IMG/VR virus record: IMGVR_UViG_3300037485_000069
Location: 1-44,943 of that record
Length of the DNA stretch: 44,943 nt
Origin: a virus
Direction: 5' to 3' (one strand)
Made by a program: the position numbers and the translations under genes. Under the pieces are notes generated by a model that ran no database searches, was not told the origin of the DNA, and was given only the letters and a program-made list of their open reading frames with translations. Below, one piece after another: positions 1,389 to 41,757 of the stretch (within the stretch, counting starts at the first letter, position 1; the number at the start of each line of letters is the position of its first letter).

Positions 1389-1612
1389 GCTTTAACGGAA
1401 CAAACGCCAATGATCTGCAGATTGGTGGGGATCATTACAAGAACAAACAGCACCAGACTTGGGACGTTATCTCTGACTGGGGGCTTGGGTTCCTCGACGG
1501 AAATGCCGTCAAGTACCTAAGCCGCTGGCGATCCAAAGGTGGGATCGACGATCTTCGCAAAGCCCGTCACTACATTGACAAGCTGATCGAACTTGAAACC
1601 AGCCGCGAATAA
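1385..1612 (+). CDS. DUF3310-family phage protein
   Basis: The 75-residue protein matches the pattern of the DUF3310 (SaV-like) family from memory: GGDHYKNKQHQTWDVI, then GLGFLDGNAVKYLSRW, then KGGIDDLRKARHYIDKLIE. These proteins are common in early regions of tailed phages, often near nucleotide-metabolism genes. Their biochemical role is not established to my knowledge. The length is typical of the stand-alone form. It is the last plus-strand gene before the antisense cassette, and its stop lies directly in front of the hairpin that ends that cassette. Confidence 0.9.
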   Translation: MSFNGTNANDLQIGGDHYKNKQHQTWDVISDWGLGFLDGNAVKYLSRWRSKGGIDDLRKARHYIDKLIELETSRE

Positions 1613-1646
1613 AAAAGCCCCGGCGACGGTTAAGTCCAGCCGGGGC
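1611..1646 (-). terminator. Intrinsic terminator of the antisense cassette
   Basis: A perfect 8-bp stem (GCCCCGGC / GCCGGGGC) encloses a 14-nt loop. Read on the minus strand, the stem is followed by six T residues, as in a rho-independent terminator. On the plus strand no T run follows, so the element is oriented for the zinc-finger nuclease gene, not for the DUF3310 gene. It sits about 130 bp past that gene's stop. Confidence 0.7.
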
Positions 1647-1776
1647 AAGCAGGTTACCCTGCATAGGAGAAGCAACGACGCTGCAAAGCGCCGATGTGAG
1701 TCTAGCTCAAGATCAAGGCAAGCGCTTCTGCTGGACTGTTGACGATGGAAACATTACCACCTCGCCACTCGTCGAC
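1647..1776. other. Non-coding spacer between two converging genes
   Basis: No credible gene lies in this 130-bp stretch between the terminator hairpin and the 3' end of the minus-strand nuclease gene. It contains one small hairpin (GCAGG-TTAC-CCTGC at 1649-1662). It would be the 3' untranslated part of the antisense transcript. Confidence 0.5.
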
Positions 1777-2667
1777 CTATTCTTCAGAAGATTTATTGGC
1801 GGGGACATCTACTACTCCTCCAATCGCAAACTTTATGCCATCAAACTTACCTTGAGCAAATAAAGAGGCTTCTTCCTCTGTGTAAATTAAGTACACAGGC
1901 CCGCCTGCCCAAGTTTCAAGCCATTTTTTTTGGACCTTGTTTAAGCCTCGACGGCCATAGCCAGTTTTGGGGTTTTTAATATCAAACAAATGCCACGCCC
2001 CATTGATCCACGCAACCCCATCTGGAATACCCATTCCAGCAGTACTCATGTCATAAACGGCGCAATACTTACGCATTTCTGCAATAACTTCATTGTGATT
2101 GGCGTCTTTTCTTGGGCCGTATTTCAATGTAGCCTCCGCTGATGCCATGCCTGCACGAAAAGCGCCTCCGCTATCTAAGTGGCATTGATAGCTACAGTAT
2201 TTGCGTTGCTGAGATTTGGGGTGCTTAAACTGTTTGTTGCACTTGGCGCATTTTGTATATAACGCTTTTTCTTGCCTCAATTTCCCTGAGCATTCGCTGG
2301 AGCAAGTGATTTTTGTGGATGTTGGTTGGCAATTAAAAGTTTTTGCGCAATAGCTGCAAGTCTTTTTATTTCTTTCCTTGATAACCTTTGGTGGTTTAGG
2401 TTTGATTTTACTAAGTGAGTAGCATTGATGAGAGCAGAACTTTCTTGTCTTTGAGTAACTGCTAAACTGTATTTTGCATCTTACGCACTGGCGCGCTGCG
2501 GAGTTTTTATAGTTTGGGTTGTAAACGCCGACAAGTTTTTCCCGATACGTTGCCCCCATACAGGCTCTTGAACAAGTCTTTTGCCTTATCTGGTGTGCGG
2601 TCGCTAATTTTTCTACGCCGCACTTGCCGCACTTCCATAGACCCAATAGGGGCACAAGATTGTTCAT
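1777..2667 (-). CDS. Zinc-finger protein fused to VRR-NUC-like nuclease
   Basis: This 296-residue protein lies antisense inside the early plus-strand module. Its first 165 residues hold four units of the form CxxC...CxxxC: C13/C16/C32/C36, C61/C64/C78/C82, C104/C107/C122/C126 and C140/C143/C158/C162. Each could hold one zinc. The C-terminal part looks like a VRR-NUC / PD-(D/E)XK nuclease: E193, GIPDGVAW with D216, FDIKNP with D229 and K231, then Q246 in KVQKKW. The start is the ATG at 2667. The frame stays open further upstream but runs through the promoter region. No Shine-Dalgarno is visible, and the promoter -10 box lies only six bases before the ATG, so the message may be leaderless. It could be a mobile or homing-type endonuclease, a DNA-repair nuclease, or an exclusion factor. 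Confidence 0.75.
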   Translation of the reverse strand: MNNLVPLLGLWKCGKCGVEKLATAHQIRQKTCSRACMGATYREKLVGVYNPNYKNSAARQCVRCKIQFSSYSKTRKFCSHQCYSLSKIKPKPPKVIKERNKKTCSYCAKTFNCQPTSTKITCSSECSGKLRQEKALYTKCAKCNKQFKHPKSQQRKYCSYQCHLDSGGAFRAGMASAEATLKYGPRKDANHNEVIAEMRKYCAVYDMSTAGMGIPDGVAWINGAWHLFDIKNPKTGYGRRGLNKVQKKWLETWAGGPVYLIYTEEEASLFAQGKFDGIKFAIGGVVDVPANKSSEE

Positions 2668-2673
2668 TGATGT

Positions 2674-2702
2674 AGTATAGGCGCAACAATCAAGGCAGGC
2701 AA
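2674..2702 (-). promoter_or_regulatory. Sigma70-type promoter for the zinc-finger nuclease
   Basis: On the minus strand, TTGCCT (-35, 4 of 6 consensus bases) and TATACT (-10, 5 of 6) are separated by exactly 17 bp. The predicted transcription start falls at or next to the gene's ATG, which implies little or no 5' leader. I judged this by eye only. Confidence 0.5.
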
Positions 2703-2726
2703 TCCACGCGAGCGGCTCTACGCATT

Positions 2727-40967: not shown

Positions 40968-40996
40968 TTTATACCATGTGGCGTTGGGGTATGCAA
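40968..40996 (-). promoter_or_regulatory. Weak promoter candidate downstream of the endonuclease
   Basis: TTGCAT and TATAAA are 17 bp apart on the minus strand at the very end of the endonuclease gene. The -10 is good (5 of 6) and the -35 poor (3 of 6). It could supply transcription to the two small surface-protein genes after the capsid terminator. Confidence 0.3.
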
Positions 40997-41730
40997 GAGA
41001 TTAGGTATCTAAACGCCCAATCTTTTCTTGGGCCTTTGGAAAGCGGCTTACCAGACTTAAGCGCCCGGTTTAGGGTTGGCATGAGAAGCCCAAGGGTTTG
41101 CAATGTTTCAGTAAGGCTTGCAAAAATATGTTCTTTCCCGGCAGGATCGGTAGCAATTACTTCTTTGCTCATCTTTGCCTTGGACTCTTCTGTGTGCTTA
41201 CGTCCTTGCCAGTGGCTGTAGTTGCCAGCTTCTGCGGCAGCGCGAATCTTGGCCTTGCCTTCTTCTGATACTTTCCGGCCCGCTGTTTTTTGCTTGCCGC
41301 GTTGGGTATCACCAATCTTCTTGCGAACCTCTTCGCTGACAGTTTGGCCGTAGCGGTAGTGCGCTGCGCCTGCGTGTTTACCTTTTCTGCCTTCACTTAT
41401 GTTTTCTTTTGCTGTGTCTGAAAGAACAATGCCCAAGCGCGGGGCAGTAGCCAGAGTGTTTACGTTGTAGCAATCTTTCTGCCCTACGCAATCGCGCAGC
41501 CATTTGTCTTCCCAAGCAAGCGTAGCTTCGCCTTCTGGGATTTGCTCCATGATTTCAAACACAAACACTTCCGCGCCGTACTTGTTCCACGATGCTTGTA
41601 AGTGTGGGTTTTTGTGAACATTCCGCTTTAGATCGTTCTTGTGTTGCCACTCCCTGCGAGCAAAGCTCTCGGCGCTTCCGATGTAGAACTTGTTATTCAC
41701 CATGTTGGTGATGCGATAGATAACGGCCAT
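40969..41730 (-). CDS. GIY-YIG homing endonuclease with NUMOD3 repeats (253 aa)
   Basis: The start ATG follows a strong GGAGG motif by six bases. The N-terminal domain shows VIYRITN (GIY position) and KFYIGSAESFARREWQH, with R26 and, later, E74 as expected catalytic residues. The centre carries NUMOD3-like DNA-binding repeats (GRKGKHAGAAHYRYG, AGRKVSEEGKAKIR, HWQGRKHTEESKAKMS). The C-terminal part (HIFASLTETLQTLGL, WAFRYL) resembles the IENR1/NUMOD1 helix-turn-helix type. Such free-standing enzymes cut intron-less alleles near their own locus and spread. It lies directly after the capsid gene. Confidence 0.92.
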   Translation of the reverse strand: MAVIYRITNMVNNKFYIGSAESFARREWQHKNDLKRNVHKNPHLQASWNKYGAEVFVFEIMEQIPEGEATLAWEDKWLRDCVGQKDCYNVNTLATAPRLGIVLSDTAKENISEGRKGKHAGAAHYRYGQTVSEEVRKKIGDTQRGKQKTAGRKVSEEGKAKIRAAAEAGNYSHWQGRKHTEESKAKMSKEVIATDPAGKEHIFASLTETLQTLGLLMPTLNRALKSGKPLSKGPRKDWAFRYLISCIPQRHMV

Positions 41731-41757
41731 TCTGTCCTCCTGCGTTGGCACGTACAG

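Follow-up and report, generated by a model that had tools for sequence, protein, structure and literature searches.

In the window, a stretch of 44,943 nucleotides of viral DNA (IMG/VR record IMGVR_UViG_3300037485_000069), the gene for a zinc-finger/VRR-NUC chimera (ZnF-VRR) is located inside a resident gene for a stand-alone VRR-NUC nuclease, which it has destroyed. Both ends of the resident gene are still present, and the sequence-only reading of this DNA had overlooked the interruption. With a probability of roughly 55%, a homing-type mobile nuclease has inserted into and destroyed the resident VRR-NUC resolvase gene, and is now the only VRR-NUC nuclease of the phage. The elements of the interrupted gene are the following:

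2702 to 2725, minus strand: 5' remnant of the resident VRR-NUC gene, MRRAARVD, its first eight codons (position-matrix score)
1780 to 2667, minus strand: ZnF-VRR gene, ATG at 2667-2665 and stop TAG at 1779-1777 (homologs, purifying selection in related pairs)
1702 to 1776, minus strand: 3' remnant of the resident VRR-NUC gene, VDEWRGGNVSIVNSPAEALALILS followed by its stop, the last 24 codons (profile search)

The resident gene was recognized from 70 fetched IMG/VR contigs, each of which carries a homolog of the neighboring PD-(D/E)XK exonuclease gene. In about 56 of the 70, a gene of about 92 codons for a stand-alone VRR-NUC protein lies upstream of the exonuclease gene and on the opposite strand, which is the same place and the same strand as those of ZnF-VRR in the window. 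A search for related phages lacking the cassette had been proposed in the sequence-only reading as a way to its boundaries. In these contigs the small gene is indeed uninterrupted, and the boundaries are the remnants of that gene; the relatives do not all carry the gene in place with no sign of insertion. The 5' remnant, ATGCGTAGAGCCGCTCGCGTGGAT (2725..2702), is found just upstream of the ZnF-VRR gene. With a position matrix made from 42 residents, MRRAARVD scores 25.7 bits, while no other 8-mer in the six frames of the entire 44.9-kb window exceeds 11.5 bits. The 3' remnant starts directly after the ZnF-VRR stop and corresponds to positions 73-93 of the 97 positions of the resident profile (19.1 bits, E 7e-4 over 13,510 six-frame segments). 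It was also recovered by a separate search (46% identity, E 1.2e-4). Approximately 62 resident codons are missing between the two remnants. A DNA search for phages sharing the downstream genes of the window gave no match.

The same anatomy can be observed in the nearest named relative of the window protein (49% identity), which is encoded by Acinetobacter phage A72 (L002). Here, the central part of a 93-codon resident VRR-NUC gene has given way to an 824-bp block; the phages AB3P2, LZ35, IME-AB2, AbP2 and C62 carry this gene intact. The first ten codons of the resident (VRAAKIDENQ) are followed by the block and then by the last bases of the resident, and the flanks align with the uninterrupted relatives up to both breakpoints, at about 82% (5') and 94-97% (3') DNA identity. 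Presence and absence among close relatives at the same site, as known for homing endonucleases, is thus seen for A72 against five phages and for the window against about 56 contigs. A run of eight T (L002:3363-3381) shifts the reading frame of the A72 chimera, so its annotation consists of two proteins, an ‘HNH endonuclease’ and a hypothetical one; the frame change may be a sequencing error, real decay or frameshifting.

Further chimeras, some thirty in number and with two to five zinc-finger modules, were found in a wider search. A scan of bacterial genomes yielded one chimera-bearing prophage, in Nitrosovibrio (L173). Among 399 genomes of its order, ZnF-VRR was found in Nitrosovibrio itself only, and the family is therefore rare. 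To find remnants, a profile of the resident protein was run against all six frames of the chimera flanks and the surrounding kilobases. All hits with E < 0.3 lie in the immediate flank and in sense orientation; the upstream hits correspond to N-terminal parts of the resident and the downstream hits to C-terminal parts. In a first set, the E-values were 5e-7 (L173), 2e-6 (L174), 4e-5 (L170), 7e-4 (window), 0.006 (L179/L180/L182) and 0.2 (L171, a short remnant on the downstream side); in a second set, they were 1e-7 (L229/L230), 4e-4 (L246) and 0.001 (L233). In L170, L172, L213, L217 and L221, and also in A72, a short stretch of resident start codons is fused in frame to the chimera. Taken together, the flanks show that the resident gene has been invaded repeatedly and that its two ends were left behind, in at least eight well-supported separate events, or thirteen if the short cases are counted as well. 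A search of 17 chimera contigs, four of which are 35-46 kb long, revealed no intact stand-alone VRR-NUC gene at any other position.

Every insertion has lost a few codons right after the PD motif. The 5' remnants extend at most to GCPD(V) (in L229), and the earliest start of a 3' remnant is at about GY..LLEVK (GF..WVIEVK in L170). This shared loss would fit a cut near the active-site codons PDLLVGY, accompanied by loss on both sides. It was also considered whether the DNA target is that part of the resident gene which is conserved most strongly. This was rejected, as PDLLVGY is not distinctive compared to LLEVKDG and both are among the best conserved stretches. Site-specific insertion at one fixed base was rejected as well, because the breakpoints differ between phages. 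Within the set L229, L230 and L233, the leftover 5' resident part of L233 has an internal deletion relative to L229; its dead resident codons are eroding after insertion.

Chimeras with no visible remnant are still located in the recombination region. The gene that comes after the resident tail in L170 directly follows the chimera in L178, L181, L184, L185 and L192, and NinB-like genes (read from the translation) follow the chimeras of L183 and L194.

The product of 2667..1777 (minus strand) is a chimera of 296 amino acids according to the ORF translation, with the following parts:

2560 to 2631, minus strand: zinc-finger module 1, C13, C16, C32, C36 (PHROG 1271/2308 match, AlphaFold2 model)
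2422 to 2487, minus strand: zinc-finger module 2, C61, C64, C78, C82 (cysteines invariant across the family alignment)
2293 to 2361, minus strand: zinc-finger module 3, C103, C106, C121, C125 (translation)
2185 to 2253, minus strand: zinc-finger module 4, C139, C142, C157, C161 (translation)
1780 to 2121, minus strand: predicted VRR-NUC/Hjc-type PD-(D/E)XK nuclease domain, E193, D216, D229-x-K231, Q246 (alignment, AlphaFold2 model, structure and profile matches)

All four CxxC...CxxxC modules that had been claimed are present in the translation. The claimed PD-(D/E)XK core holds up likewise: in the alignment of the zinc-finger family the catalytic E193, D216 and K231 and the conserved Q246 are invariant, and position 229 is either D or E. 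The window protein therewith has the full catalytic core of VRR-NUC (PF08774), namely E, D, (D/E)xK and Q, the last of which was reported as conserved in PMC4103454. A Pfam search with the window protein gave no family above the cut-off, the gathering score of PF08774 not being reached, and the zinc-finger relatives match PF08774 with E-values of 0.0017-0.06, below the cut-off.

An AlphaFold2 model, which had been suggested as a check, was built on an alignment of 24 relatives. The zinc-finger modules and the nuclease domain are modeled with confidence. The mean pLDDT is 80, with domain blocks at about 90 and above, and the pTM is 0.42, a low value that is probably due to parts floating against each other. 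The best structural match of the modeled nuclease domain (VIA-align) is the VRR_NUC structure 4qbo (Z 7.6 over 83 residues, rmsd 3.1), a score that is middling, though above the archaeal Hjc matches that come next (Z up to 5.9) together with FAN1 (Z up to 5.7). The structure 4qbo also ranked first in a sequence profile search (E 0.0016). Foldseek with the whole model returned weak E-values (best 0.006, to Hjc), probably because the domains float relative to each other. The C-terminal domain is thus predicted to be a PD-(D/E)XK nuclease of the VRR-NUC/Hjc (Holliday-junction-resolvase) type.

The origin of this domain was examined in a tree of 67 VRR domains, 20 of which come from zinc-finger chimeras. 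The 20 form one group apart from the residents of their own loci, on a weakly supported branch (68/51). The starred inner branches place the window with L170, and L171, L172 and A72 next to this pair, rather than with the local residents. In addition, the VRR domain of the chimera is complete: it has its own DANHxE start motif and its own stop, after which the resident tail follows. Because the VRR domain groups apart from the local residents, ZnF-VRR must have moved as a unit; because it is complete with its own stop and followed by the tail of the resident, an exchange at matching positions does not account for it. The whole-gene dN/dS of related pairs is 0.06-0.30 (purifying selection), and in most pairs the VRR part is the most constrained. 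These comparisons show that ZnF-VRR moved as one unit, that its catalytic residues are intact and that its relatives are under purifying selection.

The tree also bears on an origin by domain accretion in place, where zinc fingers would have been added to the local resident VRR-NUC to give a resolvase with extra DNA-binding modules. The in-frame joining of resident start codons to the zinc-finger part in L170, A72, L172, L221 and L213 would suit such an origin. It would not explain why the chimera VRR domain starts with a motif of its own, why it groups with other chimeras rather than with the local resident or why the tail of the resident comes after it. Given the tree and the complete second VRR domain, addition in place was rejected, and it is the least probable of the explanations weighed here.

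The sequence-only reading had instead seen a moron-type cassette: an accessory gene with a promoter of its own, inserted in the direction opposite to the early genes, that might serve in superinfection exclusion or host-DNA degradation. Two signals are relevant to this claim:

1611 to 1646, minus strand: intrinsic terminator, 8-bp G+C stem and T6 (-23.9 kcal/mol for the folded stretch)
2674 to 2702, minus strand: promoter-like TTGCCT-17-TATACT, overlapping the 5' remnant and not above chance

The terminator is real, with its hairpin and T6 at 1646..1611, and so is the opposite orientation. However, the resident VRR-NUC gene of the relatives is already antisense at this very place, so that neither the orientation nor the terminator supports an insertion: the orientation is ancestral, and the transcription unit was probably inherited. 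The terminator, located past the 3' remnant, probably once belonged to the resident unit. The letters of the proposed promoter are present, but they are weak evidence: the site has 9 of 12 matches, and four such sites occur in the region where 4.7 are expected by chance. Its -35 box overlaps leftover codons of the resident gene, and no Shine-Dalgarno sequence was seen upstream of the ATG at 2667. A moron is, furthermore, an extra gene between intact genes, whereas ZnF-VRR replaces the core of a resident gene. No evidence was obtained for superinfection exclusion or host-DNA degradation, as a PADLOC search gave no defence-family match; an anti-phage defence gene was rejected on the same ground. 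The moron-type insert was rejected because the resident occupies the same place and strand, and it is now highly unlikely. From the suggestion of a mobile DNA-targeting nuclease, the mobility survives, since the zinc-finger chimera has moved horizontally and possibly targets DNA, while the moron argument offered for it fails.

The zinc-finger half has relatives of its own. Among the PHROGs it matches phrog_1271 (HNH endonuclease, E 8e-10; E 3e-13 for the relative L194) and phrog_2308 (an unnamed family, E 1e-8). The Nitrosovibrio prophage chimera carries an extra N-terminal piece, NGKTQSLSKWSREIGIGCSTLQNRINIGWDIEKVMTHPLG (L173:3404-3560), that matches PHROG 3377 ‘HNH endonuclease’. At L008:3941-5083, a similar array is combined with repeated KxKWQDLEFRERV-type motifs and a C-terminal DUF559 nuclease, which is Vsr-like and makes a third catalytic class on this kind of array. 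DNA-binding modules shared with other nucleases, as in homing endonucleases, are thus seen through PHROG 1271, PHROG 3377 (L173) and the DUF559 fusion (L008). It is this placement of zinc-finger arrays before interchangeable nuclease domains that gives the family its homing-type look. The sequence ‘GxxNPNY’ between modules 1 and 2 resembles NUMOD3, for which Pfam gave no match. A zinc-finger-only protein with an HTH-like N-terminus and no nuclease is encoded at L010:726-1202 (phrog_2308, E 3e-39). The window itself contains a second homing-type nuclease at 40969-41751 (minus strand), in the head/tail gene region (phrog_314, E 3e-28, GIY-YIG family match).

For the homing-type nuclease, the following course of events can be proposed. 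The zinc-finger array would bind the DNA of the resident VRR-NUC gene, and the VRR-NUC domain would cut near the conserved active-site codons (PDLLVGY). Repair of the break would then use a copy with the chimeric gene as template, whereupon the occupied gene would no longer be a target. The VRR-NUC domain of the invader may then let the phage keep its resolvase activity. Sequence-specific cutting, copying by repair and takeover of the resolvase role are all inferred steps. Several observations speak against homing. The breakpoints vary between phages, unlike those of homing within a species. The family's place in a resolvase slot could be explained by selection for keeping one resolvase, and the shared lost core could partly reflect chance or erosion of dead codons. 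Homing endonucleases usually reside in introns, inteins or between genes and spare the host gene. Here, a protein gene is broken, outside any intron, intein or intergenic space, and with the loss of its active-site codons the resident is not left functional, as is usual for homing endonucleases though not strictly defining.

The main rival to homing is a resolvase swap. In this case the chimera would be a variant of the Holliday-junction resolvases that spreads through ordinary illegitimate recombination, and selection would retain phages in which it landed in or next to the resident, because it can fill the same role and may bind DNA better. The anatomy is common to both explanations. Phage VRR-NUC proteins of the stand-alone kind are dimeric enzymes that cut Holliday junctions (PMC4103454), and the strong constraint on the VRR part is in line with such a role. 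Chimeras with no remnant left likewise keep to the recombination region, next to NinB or the shared downstream gene. Furthermore, the slot before the terminase region of Obolenskvirus already alternates between resolvases. In this slot a stand-alone VRR-NUC, a RusA resolvase or a zinc-finger VRR-NUC is observed (L002, L003, L161, L164-L168), a natural set of interchangeable resolvase-type genes. On the other hand, what arrives is an entire gene including its stop codon, and superfluous ends of the resident are left over, which does not match allelic exchange. Either targeting or very strong selection is required to account for eight or more independent landings in a gene that measures about 280 bp, and the zinc fingers are common to HNH and DUF559 nucleases. 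The swap is the less probable of the two, and homing is preferred.

Homing may also be taken one step further, to a self-replacing selfish gene: a VRR-NUC homing nuclease that finds VRR-NUC resolvase genes by its zinc fingers, disrupts them by inserting into them and afterwards acts as the resolvase of the phage. By doing so, the invader would pay back the cost of invading a gene at its active-site codons. This extended version is somewhat unlikely. A family that lands time and again in a protein gene of its own catalytic kind and then becomes the sole such enzyme would be a different solution to the problem of host harm. Among the titles and abstracts of open-access papers, none was found that describes such a combination of VRR-NUC with homing endonucleases or with zinc fingers, nor any nuclease whose insertions recur in genes of the catalytic family to which it belongs. 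As far as these show, this would be the first homing-type use of a VRR-NUC domain. The family supplies natural zinc-finger nucleases with 2 to 5 modules. Should the resident gene be the target, the target genes are known, and DNA reading by prokaryotic zinc fingers becomes directly testable.

When comparing ZnF-VRR to known systems, the stand-alone phage VRR-NUC proteins (stNUC, saNUC and psNUC; PF08774) display the same catalytic fold and motif residues, and the interrupted resident gene is of their kind. The chimera differs from them by its two to five additional zinc-finger modules and by sitting inside resident VRR-NUC genes. It also forms a separate sequence group, with KNPKTxYGxxGLN in place of VKDGxKPPSARKLT. 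The free-standing phage homing endonucleases (Seg and Mob of T4, and the zinc-finger HNH enzymes of PHROG 1271) likewise place a modular DNA-binding part before the nuclease and are likewise present or absent between close relatives, and the PHROG 1271 profile recognizes the zinc fingers of the window. Their catalytic domains are HNH or GIY-YIG instead of VRR-NUC, and a further difference is that the insertion of ZnF-VRR destroys the protein gene into which it goes, a gene from the same catalytic family as ZnF-VRR itself. The PD-(D/E)XK homing endonuclease I-Ssp6803I (2ost) has the same superfamily fold as the window domain (Z 4.6); it is intron-encoded, has no zinc-finger array and is not a VRR-NUC enzyme. 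Archaeal Hjc and the VRR-NUC of FAN1 also have their fold in common with the window domain, but these are archaeal or cellular enzymes that lack zinc-finger arrays of this type. A homing endonuclease with a resolvase fold does have a precedent in F-CphI and the DHHRN homing endonucleases, which are built on the Holliday-junction-resolvase fold of Endo VII (PMC6083498), whereas the fold of the window domain is PD-(D/E)XK.
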